Shown: positions 16,270 to 49,769 of the stretch, piece after piece
Position numbering within the stretch: position 1 is the first letter of the stretch
Layout: each line of letters starts with the position of its first letter
Assembly (NCBI GenBank): GCA_003211695.1
Contig: QCSA01000002.1
Location: forward strand, 1 to 64,000
Length of the DNA: 64,000 bases
DNA from: Pelagibacteraceae bacterium AG-464-P07
Lineage (GTDB): Bacteria > Pseudomonadota > Alphaproteobacteria > Pelagibacterales > Pelagibacteraceae
Direction: 5' to 3'
Notes under the pieces: generated by a model
What the model was told of the DNA's origin: nothing
Database searches by the model: none
Seen by the model: the letters and a program-made list of their open reading frames with translations, nothing else
Made by a program: the position numbers and the translations under genes

Positions 16270-17237
16270 TTTATATTATTAAAAAGTTTTATTGATTCAA
16301 TTAAACTAGACGGATCAGCAATTTTTTTTCCAACAATATCTACTGCAACACCATGATCTGGTGAAACTCTGATAAATGGAAGGCCTAAGGTAATATTAAT
16401 AGCTTTCAAACCCATTATAGTTTTAATCGGTGTTAATACTTGATCATGATACATTCCAACAACTACGTCGAATTTTTTTTGACTTTTTGATAAAAATAAT
16501 GTGTCAGCGGAAAGTGGGCCAGAGATATTAATTTTTTGTTTTTTTAGCTTTTTAATTGCAGGCTTAATTATTCTTTCTTCTTCTGAAAATTTTTCATTAG
16601 AAAAACAGTGTGGATTTAACCCAGTAATTGCGATTTTAACTTTTTTTTTTAAATATTTATTATAAAAAAAAACAATTTCTTTTATTTGACTTACTATTTT
16701 TTCAATATTTAATTTTAAAGATATTTTTTTTACCGGAATATGTGTTGTAATCGGAGTAACAGCTAATTTTTTGCTGTAAATTAACATTGCTACCTTATTA
16801 TAGCATCCCATTTTATATGCAATAAATTCTGTTATACCATTGAATTTTTTATTTAGTAAAGTTTCTTTTGATACTGGACCATTTATAAATCCCAAAATTT
16901 TATTTTGTTTTATCAATTTTAGTCCTTCAGAAAAACAATTTAAAATAAATTTATTTGATTTTTTTGAAATTTTTTCAAAAATTTTTTTTTGATTGTATTT
17001 TATATTAATCACGGGAATAGCCGTACCTTTTAAATCTTCTAATTTAAAATTCTTTTCAATTAACTTTAATTTTAGATTAAATTTAAAATATTTTAAATGT
17101 CTGTATAAAAGATTGTAATTTCCAATGACTAAGCATAGATGGTGATTAAATTTTTTTTTTTTTATCCAAGATTTAAAAATTATTTCAGATGAAATACTAT
17201 TGGGTTCTCCAAGAATTATAGCAATTGGTTTACTCAT
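16266..17237 (-). CDS. pdxA: 4-hydroxythreonine-4-phosphate dehydrogenase
   Basis: PdxA oxidises 4-phosphohydroxy-threonine in pyridoxal phosphate synthesis. The start at 17237 gives 323 residues beginning MSKPIAIILGEP, as expected; the frame is open further upstream to 17324 but that extension is lysine/isoleucine-rich and lies inside surA. Visible landmarks are the metal-binding histidines in ITTHIP and GMYHDQVLTP, GPLSADTLF, and SPDHGVA near the C-terminus. It overlaps the surA end by 8 bases and rsmA by 4. Confidence 0.9.
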   Translation of the reverse strand: MSKPIAIILGEPNSISSEIIFKSWIKKKKFNHHLCLVIGNYNLLYRHLKYFKFNLKLKLIEKNFKLEDLKGTAIPVINIKYNQKKIFEKISKKSNKFILNCFSEGLKLIKQNKILGFINGPVSKETLLNKKFNGITEFIAYKMGCYNKVAMLIYSKKLAVTPITTHIPVKKISLKLNIEKIVSQIKEIVFFYNKYLKKKVKIAITGLNPHCFSNEKFSEEERIIKPAIKKLKKQKINISGPLSADTLFLSKSQKKFDVVVGMYHDQVLTPIKTIMGLKAINITLGLPFIRVSPDHGVAVDIVGKKIADPSSLIESIKLFNNIK

Positions 17238-18339
17238 TGAAAAATTTAATTTTAGTATTATTTTTAATTTGATTAAAATAATTTTTTGAAAAATTATATA
17301 ATTGATTATTTTTTTCAATTTCAATTAATTCTTTCAACTTTTCATCAAGATCCATCTTATTTTCCTCTACTCTTTTGTTTTCAACTTTTAATATTAAAAT
17401 TCCTCCAGAAATTGGAATGGGCTCAGTTATTGTGCCTATTTTGGTTTTTTTTATAAATTTTAATAATAGTTTAGAAAATTTACTTTCATTGACCCAGCCC
17501 AACCTACCTCCTTGTTGAGCGGTTGGTGACGAACTAAATTGAATAGCAGTATTTTCAAATCCTTTTTCTTTTATATTTTTTATTAGATCATCTATTGTAA
17601 TTTGATTATTTGTTTTGACATCAGCCACTTCTTCAATAGACTTTTCTGCATCTATAAGATTTTTTTTATTATTATAGGATGCGCTTTCAGCTTCAATGAT
17701 AATTCCATCTTGTTCTTCAGCAACAATATTATTTTCTGTCAATACTTCTTTACTTTCATTATTTAATTCCTTTATTGCCGCATCCTCAATAAATATTTCA
17801 TAAACTAGATACTCTTTTTTTTTTTTTTCTTCCGTAATTAATGTCTTCAATTTTTTATCAATTTTTTCCTTGTCAATAACAATTTGATTCTTGTAAAATT
17901 GATAAACTAATTGGTTCCATTTTAATTCGATTAAAACTTTTTCTTTAAATTCATCAAATTCATATTCCTCAAATTTTAAATAGGTTTTAAAATCCTCAAT
18001 GTTCTTAAATCCAATATTTTGAGCTGATTGGGCAATCTGATTATTAATAGTTTTATCTGTCATAATTATATTATCGTAATGTTCCAGTGCACTGATTTTT
18101 ATTTTATCTTTAATTAAAGAATCGACCGCAATCTTTCTGGATTCTTGATCATTCAATTTTTTAAATTGTCCCACAGTTATCACACTTAAATATTTTATTT
18201 CTCTAGTTAAATCGTAATTGGTAATAATTTCACTTCCTACTGATATAATTATTTTATTGGTTAATCCTGCTTTTGAACTAGTCAATAAAAGTATTGAGAT
18301 AAGGATTATAGATTTAAATAATTTGATATTTTTTCTCAC
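17230..18339 (-). CDS. surA: Periplasmic chaperone/peptidyl-prolyl isomerase SurA, with inserted OstA-like module
   Basis: The 369-residue protein has a signal peptide (about residues 1-24), the SurA N-terminal chaperone domain beginning KIIISVGSEIITNYDL, and one parvulin domain. The parvulin domain starts at KEYLVYEIFIE and resumes at GFENTAIQFSSSPTAQQGG. Between these parts, residues ~200-247 form an extra module (QDGIIIEAESASYNNKKN) that closely resembles the OstA-type repeat at the start of the neighbouring LptD. SurA normally escorts outer-membrane proteins, including LptD, through the periplasm. A run of 14 adenines on the coding strand (17815-17828) is in frame just before the insert. 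It lies directly after lptD. Confidence 0.88.
   Translation of the reverse strand: MRKNIKLFKSIILISILLLTSSKAGLTNKIIISVGSEIITNYDLTREIKYLSVITVGQFKKLNDQESRKIAVDSLIKDKIKISALEHYDNIIMTDKTINNQIAQSAQNIGFKNIEDFKTYLKFEEYEFDEFKEKVLIELKWNQLVYQFYKNQIVIDKEKIDKKLKTLITEEKKKKEYLVYEIFIEDAAIKELNNESKEVLTENNIVAEEQDGIIIEAESASYNNKKNLIDAEKSIEEVADVKTNNQITIDDLIKNIKEKGFENTAIQFSSSPTAQQGGRLGWVNESKFSKLLLKFIKKTKIGTITEPIPISGGILILKVENKRVEENKMDLDEKLKELIEIEKNNQLYNFSKNYFNQIKNNTKIKFFNE
17599..17742 (-). repeat. OstA-like module inside surA (copy of lptD segment)
   Basis: This segment encodes SurA residues ~200-247 and aligns with the LptD segment at 20489-20623 with one residue indel. The best DNA block, on the plus strand from 17681, matches the lptD block from 20568 at about 33 of 36 bases. 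The shared protein core is IIIEAESA followed by S/T and Y. Confidence 0.8.
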
Positions 18340-20499
18340 TTAATTACCCGTGGTAACGGGCGTGGATAATTTGCCAAAAGGTATAATTGTTAATGTAAAC
18401 ATTAGATTTTCACCAGGTTCTAAATCATTATCTGAGTAAAAGCTTTTATTATATTCTATTGCCGCTCTCAGGCAGTCATTTTCATATTGGTAGCTTATAT
18501 TATAAAATTCAGTAGCATCAGTTGTAAAGTTTTCACGAGTTTTAAATTTTAAAGAATTTGATTTATTTAATTCTAAAACCAGTCCAGCGTTAATATAATG
18601 GCTATCTCCTATATGGTTATTTTCTTCGACATATTCAAAATTTGTCACTAATTTGTTAATTTTAAAAATACCTAAAATTTCGTTATAATTTAAAGTACTG
18701 TAATTGTTATCTAACGAAAATTTATAACCAACTTTACTAAACTCATTTATATAATAATTTACATTACCAACCAATTCAGAAGTTTTTTCATTCAAGGTGC
18801 TTTGCGTGGACATAGCAACATTATCATCATAGTTATAAACTTGCCCTACTGACAAATTAAATTTTTCAAAATCATTTTTATCCTTGTGGCTATAATCTGT
18901 CCCTAAAGTTAAGCTTGTACCTGTTTCAATCACGTCAATATCACTCATTTTATTTAAAGTGTATAAGTTTAATATTCCTAATTTCAATTGGCTATCGCTC
19001 ATATTCCTCATATGACCTGGAGCAGATCTTATCATTAGTTTTGGTGTTAAAGTTTTTTTATAATTTTCCGAATTTTTTTCTAAAGGCAGAGAACTTAATA
19101 ATGATACAGCTCCCATGAGTTCGATATTATTTTTGTCATTTTTATGATCAGAAGTGTTCTCTGCCCTATAGTTTGAATTTTTTAAATTACCTTCAACTTT
19201 TGTTATAATGCCAGAGTTACCAATGTAATCATTTGAAATCCAATGAAAATCGTTGACAAATTTTGTTTGTTTTTTGTTAGTCTCGTAATTCTTGTAGTAA
19301 CCTCTGGATTGAAAGTTAAACGTTCCTAGTTCTTCAGAAATAGGTAATTTATTTTGATAATCATAATTCGGTGCTACAAATTCATATCTTTCATCTTCTT
19401 TGCCTAAATCTTCATATACATCCATGTTTATATTCATACTTGTATTATTTTTTGAAAAACTCATATCTATTGAGGAATGCATCACAGTGTTACTGGTCAT
19501 TATTTTAGATTTAATATCATGAACTTTAAGGTAAGTATCATTCGACGCTTTTTGATAATTCATTACAAGCTTGCTTTCATCAAATAATTCAAGACCTAAA
19601 TCAATATCAGATTTTGCAAAAAAATGATTTCTGCTTCCACCAGTTTTTTTGTCTGAGGTTTTTTTATAACCTTGGTTATAACTAGCATCTATAATTGAGT
19701 AACTGTTTTTTGTTACATGCCGATATTCTGTTTGAATTATAGGATTTTCATCTGCATAAATTTTTGGATTTAATGTTGCATCTTTATTTTCTGCTAAAGC
19801 GAAATAATAAGGTAAATTAAGACCATATCCTAATAAAGTAGAATTCGTTACACCCGGTACTAGGAATCCAGATTGTCTTTTTACCGTTGGATCAGGATGA
19901 AAAAACCTCGGAGTATAGAATACAGGGTAACCATATAAATATAATTTTGCATCTTCATAATTAATTGTTTGTTTTTCTTTATCATGAATTACTTTTTTTG
20001 CCACGAGTTTCCATGGGGGACATTTATCACCCCTTTTTCTACAAGTGGTAAAAACTCCTCCTTCAATATAACTATTATTCTCAGTAATGATTGCAGAATT
20101 AGCAACCAATCTAGGGTCATTTTCAACATTCCCAAATGTATCTTTTTTAAATTTCAATTTTAAATTTGAACCTGCTATTCTTTTCTTTTTAGCATCGATA
20201 AATATGTCATCAAAAAAATATTTATTTTCATATTTATCAGTCATTTCAATATAGCCTTTTGATCTTAAACTTTTATTTTTTGTAGAGTAGTGAAACATAT
20301 CTAGTAAAATTGAATTTCCGGATCCATCATTCATTTTTGTTGATTTGTTAGATTTTATAACTTGATTTTTCTTATCATATAAAACGATTTCAGTTTTCAT
20401 GGTTACTCCATTACTGCCTTTAAAAAAAACATTACCTTCAGCCAATAATTCTTCTTTGTTTTTTTGAATATTGAACCTTGTCCGATTTAAGCTCATCAT
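18340..20499 (-). CDS. lptD: LPS-assembly protein LptD, main part (frameshifted from its N-terminus)
   Basis: This 719-codon frame encodes the end of the OstA-type periplasmic domain and the outer-membrane beta-barrel that inserts lipopolysaccharide into the outer leaflet. Landmarks are EELLAEGNVFF, LVANSAIITENN, and the barrel entry motif CRKRGDKCPPWKLVAKKV with the conserved PVFYTPRFFHPDP. The frame has no signal peptide and its first residues read out of frame. The missing N-terminus is encoded in the overlapping frame at 20438-20779. Removing one A from the A7 tract (20459-20465) would fuse the two at KVQYS-KNKEELLAEGN. It is followed directly by surA. Confidence 0.85.
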   Translation of the reverse strand: MMSLNRTRFNIQKNKEELLAEGNVFFKGSNGVTMKTEIVLYDKKNQVIKSNKSTKMNDGSGNSILLDMFHYSTKNKSLRSKGYIEMTDKYENKYFFDDIFIDAKKKRIAGSNLKLKFKKDTFGNVENDPRLVANSAIITENNSYIEGGVFTTCRKRGDKCPPWKLVAKKVIHDKEKQTINYEDAKLYLYGYPVFYTPRFFHPDPTVKRQSGFLVPGVTNSTLLGYGLNLPYYFALAENKDATLNPKIYADENPIIQTEYRHVTKNSYSIIDASYNQGYKKTSDKKTGGSRNHFFAKSDIDLGLELFDESKLVMNYQKASNDTYLKVHDIKSKIMTSNTVMHSSIDMSFSKNNTSMNINMDVYEDLGKEDERYEFVAPNYDYQNKLPISEELGTFNFQSRGYYKNYETNKKQTKFVNDFHWISNDYIGNSGIITKVEGNLKNSNYRAENTSDHKNDKNNIELMGAVSLLSSLPLEKNSENYKKTLTPKLMIRSAPGHMRNMSDSQLKLGILNLYTLNKMSDIDVIETGTSLTLGTDYSHKDKNDFEKFNLSVGQVYNYDDNVAMSTQSTLNEKTSELVGNVNYYINEFSKVGYKFSLDNNYSTLNYNEILGIFKINKLVTNFEYVEENNHIGDSHYINAGLVLELNKSNSLKFKTRENFTTDATEFYNISYQYENDCLRAAIEYNKSFYSDNDLEPGENLMFTLTIIPFGKLSTPVTTGN

Positions 20500-20779
20500 T
20501 TGTTTTTATGTCAGTGATTTTGACAGATTTTTTAGCAACTATAACATTTTCTTTCTTATCATAAGTTGCACTTTCAGCTTCAATGATAATTTCATCTTGA
20601 TCTACAATAAGAACATTACCTTCTGCTATAATTTTTTCGCTATCCTTAAATAACTTTATATTTGATGCACTAATATCAAATGGTTCTTCAGTTTCGTCAG
20701 CAGCTAAACTACTTTGGATTAAAGAAAAAAAAATTAATATTAAATATAAAAATATATTTTTATTATTTTTCATTAACAT
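20438..20779 (-). CDS. lptD: LptD N-terminal part: signal peptide and OstA-type repeat (separated by frameshift)
   Basis: This 113-codon frame encodes a signal peptide (IFLYLILIFFSLIQSSLA) and the first OstA repeat (EKIIAEGNVLIVDQDEIIIE). It then runs into an out-of-frame tail, KKQRRIIG. It is the missing start of the LptD barrel gene in the overlapping frame. An LptA-like stand-alone protein is an alternative, but the next frame continues the same domain without a signal peptide, so a split lptD is more likely. It overlaps lptG by 17 bases from the upstream ATG; an ATG two codons in (20773) is also possible. Confidence 0.78.
   Translation of the reverse strand: MLMKNNKNIFLYLILIFFSLIQSSLAADETEEPFDISASNIKLFKDSEKIIAEGNVLIVDQDEIIIEAESATYDKKENVIVAKKSVKITDIKTNDELKSDKVQYSKKQRRIIG
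20489..20623 (-). repeat. OstA-like module of lptD (source copy)
   Basis: This segment encodes the first OstA repeat of LptD (residues ~53-97 of the N-terminal frame), a native part of the family fold. It is the likely source of the similar module at 17599-17742 in surA. The two copies share the plus-strand word CTTTCAGCTTCAATGATAAT exactly. Confidence 0.8.
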
Positions 20780-21854
20780 GAATCATTCCTATAGAACTAA
20801 TAAGTAAAACTATACTTACAGGAGTCCAAACCGACATTATCAGTGATATTTGTTCCGTTTCACCCAGCGCTCTAGAGAAGTAATCAAGATAAAAAATGAT
20901 AACCGAAAGGATGATAGCAATAAGAACATAAGCTAGATGACTTCCTTTGTATTTTATATTCATTACAACAGCACCAGCAAGAAGCGTCATGGACATTAAG
21001 AAAAGTGGGAAAGACAAAGATTTTTGGAATTCACCTTCAATTTCTTTAGTGGAATAACCTAGGTATTTGTAATTTTCTTTTAATTTGTTCAGTTCCCAAA
21101 AAGATACAGCATCCAAATTGGAAAAAATGTTTTTTATGCTGTTAATTTCAAAGTTACTTTCAAAAGAATGATCCGCAATATAGGTTGAGGTATTGTTACT
21201 ATTTCTGTAATAAATTATTGCATCGCTTAATTTCCATTCTTTGGTACCGATGTCAGCTTTGCGTGTTTCGATTCTAGATTGAGGCTCATTGTTTTCATCA
21301 AATTTATAGATAGAAACATTTATCAAATTATTTTGACTTAATCTTTTTGCTCTAATTATATTTGTATTTCCCTCGATTTTGTCTTTTATCCAAATACCAT
21401 TTTCTGTAAGTGCAGCCAAATAATCATTACCTTTAGTATATTCATTTTTTATATCTAAATATTTGTATGTCAGTTTCGATGTTACCGTATTTATACCCAT
21501 TACAATAAATATACCAAAAATTAATGATATTAAGGCTGGGAAAAAAATAATTCTGAAGTTTGATATTCCTGCTACCTTTAAGACAATTATCTCTTCTGAC
21601 TGAATAAAATTTAAAAATAATATTATTGATGAAAATAAAAAAATAAATGGGAATAGTTTATATATCATTGAGGGTACCTTTAAAAAAGTTAATGATAAAG
21701 GTAATAAAAATCCAACCCCATGATCCTTAAAAAAATTTACTTCTTCAAATATATTAAGAATAATTCCCAAAGCCAAAAAAGCCAAAGTAACATTCAGTAT
21801 GATTTTAGAGTATTGAATAAAAAAATATTTTTTAAATATACTAAATTTAAACAT
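20763..21854 (-). CDS. lptG: LPS export ABC transporter permease LptG
   Basis: The 363-residue protein belongs to the YjgP/YjgQ permease family. Membrane segments lie near residues 14-33, 55-80 and 98-120, then a periplasmic domain (about 130-270), then three C-terminal segments. The motif FPLFLMSMTLLAGAVVMN is typical. With LptF and the LptB ATPase (not in the window) it extracts lipopolysaccharide from the inner membrane. It starts one base after lptF ends, supporting co-translation. Confidence 0.92.
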   Translation of the reverse strand: MFKFSIFKKYFFIQYSKIILNVTLAFLALGIILNIFEEVNFFKDHGVGFLLPLSLTFLKVPSMIYKLFPFIFLFSSIILFLNFIQSEEIIVLKVAGISNFRIIFFPALISLIFGIFIVMGINTVTSKLTYKYLDIKNEYTKGNDYLAALTENGIWIKDKIEGNTNIIRAKRLSQNNLINVSIYKFDENNEPQSRIETRKADIGTKEWKLSDAIIYYRNSNNTSTYIADHSFESNFEINSIKNIFSNLDAVSFWELNKLKENYKYLGYSTKEIEGEFQKSLSFPLFLMSMTLLAGAVVMNIKYKGSHLAYVLIAIILSVIIFYLDYFSRALGETEQISLIMSVWTPVSIVLLISSIGMIHVNEK

Positions 21855-21855
21855 T

Positions 21856-23004
21856 TTATTTACCTACATTTTCAAATTTAAATATCCTAATTAAATTTAG
21901 GTAATTCAATAATATTAATGAAGGAGGCAAAGAATAATAAATAATTGAATTTAAGACAGTTTGTCCTGAGTATCTAACCATGATTTCTGCAAATACCAGG
22001 ACACTAAATGCCGCTGAAAAAACAATATATTTTTGAAAAAAATAAAATTTACCTTCCTTTCTTGATGATAATAAATAACAAATAATTATGGATATGATTG
22101 GAACGTAAAGAGGCATACCCAATCTTCTATTCAGTTCAGCTGTAATATCATCTATTCTAGCTGCACATTGAACTTCTGTAATATTAGTTTCTTCTTTGTC
22201 TAAAAATGGTTTAAAGCAATTTAATAAATCAAGAGTATTATTTTCCTGTAATTTTGGATAAGTTGTAGTTTTAGTAGAAAATGCGGATAGATTAATTTCT
22301 GTTTTATCAAAATTTAAAAAATTAATTTTATTATTTGTTTTCTCTGTTTGTATTGTGCCGTCGTATAAAACTAAAATATTTTGTACACCTCTTTTTGTAA
22401 TGTATCCTCTTTTGGCAATGATTGTTTTTGATAGTTCAGTTCTTTCTTGGTCATCTCTAGTTGCTGTGTCATCTCTTAAAAAAATATTTAACATTTCACC
22501 ATTACTTTTTTTCTTTTCAACAAATACAGTTAACCCTTTAACCGTATCATTAAATTTTTTTTCTTTTACCAAAGAAGGAAAGAGACTTATGCTAGATGAT
22601 TTTAAAATAGTTCTTGCAAGATTCAGAGATGAATGACTTACAATAACTGATAATAATAATTGAAATAATGTAATTAAAATTGAAATTTTAAAAGCTAAAT
22701 TTACCAGTCTAATTTTATTTAATCCAGATGTCCAAAAAACTAATAATTCGTTATTTTTTTCAAACTGCAATATTGTAGCTAATAAACTGATCAAAAAAAC
22801 TAAAGGAATTAATCTATTTAAAACTTTAGGAATATTTAAAATTGAATATGCAAAATAAATACTAAATGCATGTCCGTCATCGGTAACAAAATCCAGATAA
22901 TTTACAGCTTGAACAATCCAAACAATTATACTTATTGATATTAATATTAACGCAAATAAAGAAATAAATTCATTAAAAAAATATCTATTAATTGTATTTC
23001 TCAT
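21856..23004 (-). CDS. lptF: LPS export ABC transporter permease LptF
   Basis: The 382-residue member of the YjgP/YjgQ family has the same layout as LptG: three N-terminal membrane segments, a periplasmic beta-jellyroll region and three C-terminal segments. NELLVFWTSGLNKIRL (the coupling helix region) and ELNRRLGMPLYVPIISIII are visible. It heads the minus-strand outer-membrane biogenesis operon and is divergent from pepA, an arrangement common in Alphaproteobacteria. Confidence 0.92.
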   Translation of the reverse strand: MRNTINRYFFNEFISLFALILISISIIVWIVQAVNYLDFVTDDGHAFSIYFAYSILNIPKVLNRLIPLVFLISLLATILQFEKNNELLVFWTSGLNKIRLVNLAFKISILITLFQLLLSVIVSHSSLNLARTILKSSSISLFPSLVKEKKFNDTVKGLTVFVEKKKSNGEMLNIFLRDDTATRDDQERTELSKTIIAKRGYITKRGVQNILVLYDGTIQTEKTNNKINFLNFDKTEINLSAFSTKTTTYPKLQENNTLDLLNCFKPFLDKEETNITEVQCAARIDDITAELNRRLGMPLYVPIISIIICYLLSSRKEGKFYFFQKYIVFSAAFSVLVFAEIMVRYSGQTVLNSIIYYSLPPSLILLNYLNLIRIFKFENVGK

Positions 23005-48559: not shown

Positions 48560-49769
48560 AAATATTAAATCTCAATTTCCAATCTTTTCTAAAAAGATAA
48601 ATGGTAAACCACTGGTTTATCTAGATAGTTCCAATTCATCACAAAAACCTATGTGCGTAATAAATAAATTGAACGATTTTTACAAAAATGAATTTTCTAA
48701 CATAGGAAGAAGTATTCATTCACTAGCTGTAAATGCTACAAATAAATTTGAAGAAACAAGGGAAAGTATAAAAAATTTTATTAATGCTAATTTTAAAGAA
48801 GAAATCGTTTTTACTAAAAATGCGACTGAAGCTATAAACTTGGTTGCCACAACTTTTGGTCAACAAAATATTAAAGAGGGTGATGAAATCATAATTACAG
48901 AATTAGAACATCATTCAAACTACGTTCCATGGCATTTTCTTAGAGAAACAAGAGGTGCAATTATAAAGTTTGCACCAATAAATGAAGATGGCGATGTTAT
49001 CATTGATGAATTAAAAAAATTAATCACATTAAAAACAAAAATTATTGCCGTCACTCACTTGTCAAACGTTACCGGCACAATTGTACCAATCAAAGAAATA
49101 GTAGAGATTGCGCACAAAAAAAATGTTCCTGTACTAGTAGATGGATGTCAGGCTGTACCTCATATTAAAGTTGACGTTACAGATCTAGACTGTGATTTTT
49201 ATGCTTTTTCCGCTCACAAAGTTTATGGCCCAACGGGAGTTGGAATTTTGTATGCAAAAAAAAAATGGCTCGAAAAACTACCTCCTTATATAGGAGGTGG
49301 AGCCATGATTAGCGAGGTAAAAAAAGATAAAATTATTTATGCTAAACTTCCCGAGAAATATGAAGCTGGAACAATGCCTACAGCAGAAGTGATAACATTT
49401 AATGAGTCCATAAAATTTATGGAATCAATTGGAATAGATAATTTAATGAAACATGAAAAGGAAATTAAAAACTACGCCTTGGAAAAACTTAATAAAATAA
49501 ATTCTGTAAAAATAATTGGTAATCCAAAAAATAAAGCTGGAGTGATTGCCTTTACTATAAAAGGGATACATCCTCATGATATTGCTACAATTTTAGATGA
49601 GGACGGTGTAGCAATTAGAGCTGGACATCATTGCTGTCAAATTTTTCACGAAAAAATGAATTTAACTGCTACGGCAAGAGCTTCAATTGGAGTTTATAAT
49701 AATAAGGATGATATTGATATGCTCTGTAAGGCAATTGAAAATTGTAGAAAAATATTTGATTTAAAATAA
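48549..49769 (+). CDS. sufS: Cysteine desulfurase SufS
   Basis: The ATG at 48549 gives 406 residues, a typical length. This class V PLP enzyme takes sulfur from cysteine for Fe-S assembly. The PLP lysine is K224 in AFSAHKVYGPTGVG, histidines are in ELEHHSN, and the catalytic cysteine is in RAGHHCCQ. It overlaps sufD by 11 bases and sufU by 1 base. The upstream TTG at 48540 is unlikely. Confidence 0.95.
   Translation: MNIENIKSQFPIFSKKINGKPLVYLDSSNSSQKPMCVINKLNDFYKNEFSNIGRSIHSLAVNATNKFEETRESIKNFINANFKEEIVFTKNATEAINLVATTFGQQNIKEGDEIIITELEHHSNYVPWHFLRETRGAIIKFAPINEDGDVIIDELKKLITLKTKIIAVTHLSNVTGTIVPIKEIVEIAHKKNVPVLVDGCQAVPHIKVDVTDLDCDFYAFSAHKVYGPTGVGILYAKKKWLEKLPPYIGGGAMISEVKKDKIIYAKLPEKYEAGTMPTAEVITFNESIKFMESIGIDNLMKHEKEIKNYALEKLNKINSVKIIGNPKNKAGVIAFTIKGIHPHDIATILDEDGVAIRAGHHCCQIFHEKMNLTATARASIGVYNNKDDIDMLCKAIENCRKIFDLK

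Follow-up and report, generated by a model that had tools for sequence, protein, structure and literature searches.

Analysis of the window, the whole 64,000-nucleotide stretch of the draft genome G000, showed a putative lptD gene on the minus strand that was divided between two reading frames. The gene order was lptF/lptG-like, lptD, surA, pdxA, ksgA. The features of the locus were as follows.

21856..23004, minus strand: LptF-like LPS export permease
20763..21854, minus strand: LptG-like LPS export permease, upstream of lptD (TIGR04408, E 5e-63, under the cut-off; PF03739)
20438..20779, minus strand: N-terminal lptD frame, signal peptide and first OstA repeat, 113 aa, with a shifted tail past the A7 run
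20459..20465, minus strand: A7 run (T7 on the plus strand), the point of frame change; in the alignment, G001 has A6 at both of its copies and G002 has A9, in frame
18340..20499, minus strand: C-terminal lptD frame of 719 aa with the rest of the OstA part and the beta-barrel, free of other lesions
17230..18339, minus strand: SurA-like chaperone gene, immediately downstream of lptD

The A7 run on the coding strand separates the frame of the signal peptide (judged by eye) and first OstA stretch from the frame of the LptD barrel. The translation of the ORF 20438-20779 ends in YSKKQRRIIG before the stop, and the 719-aa ORF, whose frame starts with an ATG at 20499, contains NIQKNKEELLAEGN. The two ORFs overlap in different frames. 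The layout of signal peptide and OstA before the barrel is thus spread over two frames in the G000 assembly, and it lies in one frame in intact relatives. This split is not due to chance, as judged from the sequence, because the two long ORFs match successive parts of one protein within the lptF/lptG-lptD-surA-pdxA-ksgA order. Within the window, lptD had the sole internal break relative to the congener G001, and no RNA family reached the gathering threshold in the 64 kb. No second lptD copy was found in the G000 assembly, which is 83% complete, and a second intact lptD elsewhere was rejected on this basis.

The N-terminal frame matched OstA models of the LptC/LptA type (Pfam LptC-related, E 8.6e-5, over the cut-off) and LptD_N (E 0.005, under the cut-off). 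The barrel frame matched the LptD equivalog NF002997 significantly, with E 3.4e-29 and 101.6 bits, below the cut-off of 683 bits; two intact relatives had similar scores of 78-82 bits. A Pfam search of the barrel part gave no match. LPS export genes and surA beside lptD form a typical neighbourhood, and here LptF/LptG-like genes were found upstream and SurA, PdxA and KsgA downstream. The assignment to LptD, made in the earlier note from the letters alone, is therefore upheld as a probable one by the below-cut-off NF002997 match, the neighbourhood and the intact relatives. LpxC was also found in G000, which makes LPS synthesis, and with it a need for LptD, probable.

The 719-aa part was used as query against 100 genomes, G000 included. 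An lptD match was found in 84 of the 100 (its own genome included) and in 36 of the 38 genomes that were at least 90% complete. Among the five genomes of the genus compared (G000-G004), lptD was present in G000, G001 and G002. One-frame lptD genes had 841 codons in G001 and 807 codons in both G014 and G019. In G001 the OstA stretch is duplicated, and both copies read YLKNKEE from an A6 run where G000 has A7. This comparison with relatives, proposed in the earlier note, agreed with its claims that a one-base shift in the A7 run splits lptD and that the two halves join at this point, since G001 has A6 at both copies and reads through the junction in a single open frame. At the same spot G002 reads YFKKKEE from A9, in frame; its lptD is broken later in the gene by a +1 change in a different nine-base run (T on the coding strand). 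Since the breaks of G000 and G002 affect separate runs, the two genomes keep no common site. No further two-frame lptD was found among the other 82 matching genomes.

A separate observation concerns the lptD of G001, in which the extra tandem OstA stretch (about 20519-21075 of contig C4) is placed at the position of the G000 junction.

The dN/dS values were 0.30 (N half) and 0.23 (C half) against G001, and 0.35 and 0.21 against G002. By this sequence-based estimate, both halves are under purifying selection. Pseudogene decay of lptD was rejected, as there was no other lesion and dN/dS was 0.2-0.35.

The neighbouring surA gene was found in G000, G001 and G002, encoding SurA of 368-387 aa with an in-frame insert after the first parvulin-domain strand; no surA was found in G003 and G004.

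17608-17766 of the window, minus strand: SurA insert, inside surA 17230-18339, partly related to the adjacent lptD OstA repeat

Part of the insert aligned with the neighbouring LptD OstA repeat (IIIEAESASYNNKKN against IIIEAESATYDKKEN; BLASTP E 1e-12 over 56 aa), and the surA and lptD DNA shared 79% identity over about 113 bases. The insert was present in all three surA genes of the genus and absent from 20/20 other family SurA spanning the region (24 were aligned, of which four were shorter and did not reach it). It is thus genus-specific in this sample, and in part related to the LptD OstA repeat. Over the first 30 bases of a shared 87-base segment, surA and lptD of G000 were identical at 28/30 positions; the agreement with the G001 counterparts was 22/30 for surA and 25/30 for lptD. 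The residue after EAE was S, N and I in G000, G001 and G002, respectively, in both the surA and the lptD products. Because the G000 copies agree more with each other than with their G001 counterparts, these alignments hint at exchange (gene conversion) or co-variation between the neighbouring genes. AlphaFold2 modelled the SurA core with confidence and residues 192-244 with pLDDT under 50, which gives no basis for a structure of the insert. A literature search by titles only found none describing a SurA insert with LptD OstA, which does not prove absence from print.

Other split genes of G000 were sought by comparing 735,024 bases (735 kb of the 1.14-Mb draft) with 668,662 bases of the congener G001. 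G001 frames of at least 150 codons with a match in the G000 sample were counted after removal of nested ones. Left out were two G001 frames, one of 181 codons (judged antisense by eye) and one of 149 codons that matched at low identity, together with frame changes at 49760 and 63862, which look like gene boundaries. Five of the 307 matched frames (109,357 codons aligned) were split in G000, and all five were +1 changes in A/T runs of 6-10 bases (p 0.06 for 5/5). Draft error of the homopolymer type is expected to recur within one assembly, at unconnected runs and in unrelated conserved genes, and this pattern was seen here. In addition to lptD (run of 7), the split genes were as follows.

G000:C4 near 12337: rpoC, +1 in an A/T run of 7; only two part matches in G000, in different frames
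G000:C1 near 13540: TIGR00057 gene, +1 in an A/T run of 10
G000:C1 near 54500: BamB-like gene (named by eye), +1 in an A/T run of 6
G000:C11 near 11272: TIGR00697 gene, +1 in an A/T run of 9

The family search showed that the only rpoC copy of G000 consists of these two halves. The TIGR00697 gene is whole in G001, G002 and G003. The TIGR00057 gene has 249 open codons in G000 against 320-331 in G001, G003 and G004; this break may matter less, since the matched domain is complete. A one-base gap was also seen on C11 near 4556, 60 bases from the end of a frame.

Single-base breaks were found in other drafts of the genus as well, with five sites in G000, six in G002 (pdxA having two), one in G003 and three in G004. 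Their locations outside G000 were as follows.

G002:C6 near 1476, 1603, 4117 and 10550: among the breaks of G002, which lie in lptD, pdxA (two sites) and three more genes
G003:C1 near 7388: rpoC
G004:C9 near 4690, 13939 and 19198: rpoB and two more genes

Of these 15 sites in G000 and G002-G004, 13 were +1 (sign test p 0.007); the two -1 sites, one in G002 and the sole site of G003, were not clear run changes. Most of the 15 sites lay in runs of at least 6 bases, and one pdxA site of G002 was a C after a T run. No +1 run break was found in the G001 sample. Two splits in G001 were kept outside the 15, being +5 and -1/-12 changes at 64-74% identity rather than single-base run changes. In the parts compared, 4/5 genomes of the genus therefore carry single-base breaks of this kind. 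Since G001 is also a draft and had none of the +1 type in its sample, +1 run errors are not universal among the drafts of the genus.

Outside the genus, no two-frame split of rpoC was listed across the 100 genomes that matched, and rpoB, matched in 92 genomes, had two possible splits (G089 and G023, uninspected). Partial rpoC and rpoB matches apparently cut by contig ends, which were not checked individually, were excluded from the splits. Split gene instances numbered 3/10 in the genus and 2/192 outside it (p 0.0008), a contrast of few genomes tested after the pattern had been seen, the G000 rpoC split having been found before testing.

The split of lptD is best explained as a sequence error of the draft rather than as biology, with a probability of about 0.82. 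The cell would have had an intact lptD, and the assembled sequence would have gained an A in a short run of As. This A would belong to a series of +1 errors that the G000 draft carries in its A/T runs and that may have arisen during amplification, sequencing or assembly. Draft error is favoured because the same +1 lesion in a run splits four other conserved genes, including the only rpoC, and a cell could hardly live with its only rpoC broken; in addition, the break sites are not common to the congeners, so nothing is kept. The additional base compared with G001, the intact relatives, the apparent purifying selection on both halves and the four further +1 splits are established directly by comparison; from them we infer that the +1 lesions are errors of the draft rather than of the cell. 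The +1 bias itself could come from real replication slippage. The earlier note had left three alternatives unranked. The same +1 lesion in four other genes raises draft error among them, and the direction needed and the short run lower slippage rescue.

The A7 run might instead be real, with RNA polymerase or the ribosome slipping often enough to give full-length LptD, as in Buchnera and Blochmannia; this is unlikely. The genome is AT-rich (30% GC; the 735-kb sample contains 2815 six-base and 1506 seven-base A/T runs), and in insect endosymbionts 12-50% of transcripts were reported as corrected at long poly(A) runs (PMC5009743). In lptD, however, the frame is restored only if the transcript loses one A. 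The E. coli reporters described in PMC6260861 showed no rescue by deletion slippage on any poly(A) run tested, and slippage of any kind appeared only from seven Ts or eight As upward; judged only against these published E. coli data, neither the length nor the direction in lptD fits slippage rescue. In Buchnera transcription, 151/157 insertions and 16/57 deletions were reported in runs (PMC5574713). The direction needed (loss of an A) and the short A run thus disfavour rescue, and the break sites are not common to the congeners. Leaky rescue of lptD is still conceivable, because E. coli was reported to bypass indels of the DNA methyltransferase M.HaeIII in 3-8-base runs, including A insertions in an 8A run (PMC3812077). 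Programmed or stimulated frameshifting was rejected: a +1 shift is needed and a -1 slip would be useless, G001 and G002 read straight through so that the site is not kept in relatives, and the RNA structure downstream of the junction is ordinary, no stronger than that of shuffles (z -0.12).

Run-length slippage is a common indel mechanism, and a single-cell genome would display private mutations. A true recent mutation, private to one cell or population and leaving LptD lost or nearly so, is nevertheless improbable. The cell would also have to survive like lesions in its single rpoC copy and in further genes, LpxC is retained, and 36 of the 38 relatives with a completeness of 90% or more keep lptD.

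Very improbable is a genus-wide case, in which this deep-ocean SAR11 genus would truly carry, in living cells, +1 A/T-run expansions in the essential lptD, rpoC, rpoB and pdxA, tolerated through high-rate run-length correction by the polymerase or ribosome. Were this true, it would make a striking example of a free-living streamlined bacterium whose core genes depend on slippage for their decoding. A functional split into a small secreted OstA protein and a separately started barrel is hardly credible: the ATG at 20499 does open the barrel frame, but no signal peptide is visible in a barrel that begins at this codon (MMSLNRTRFNIQ...), the arrangement was listed in no other genome with an lptD match, and G002 is broken elsewhere in the gene.

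With draft error as the preferred reading, the lptD, rpoC, TIGR00057, TIGR00697 and BamB-like genes of G000 are no ground for inferring gene loss or pseudogenes. Because such breaks occur in 4/5 genomes of the genus in the parts compared, work on genome reduction among deep-ocean SAR11 should include a screen for single-base run breaks. In PMC4771312 the single-cell genome AAA240-E13, sampled at 770 m at Station ALOHA, is placed in SAR11 clade Ic.

Among known systems, the slippage-rescued genes of Buchnera and Blochmannia resemble the present case in the AT-rich genome and in conserved genes split at poly(A) runs; their runs, however, are reported as long (PMC5009743), whereas the lptD run is an A7 with an unfavourable direction, at which rescue would be hypothetical. 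The tssM gene of Citrobacter rodentium is likewise a conserved gene that is prematurely interrupted, and transcriptional frameshifting was reported to rescue it (PMC4256274); that report differs from the case of lptD, where rescue would be hypothetical. Homopolymer errors of draft and single-cell genomes share with G000 the one-base changes in short A/T runs, the unrelated genes affected and the multi-contig drafts. In single-cell Prochlorococcus assemblies, alignment gaps were reported at 0.70 per kbp with 454 alone and at 0.44 in a 454 and Illumina hybrid, and Illumina was thought most likely to have corrected the run-length discrepancies (PMC2731171). Compared with these reported gaps, the density in G000 is far lower, at 5 in about 109,000 aligned codons.
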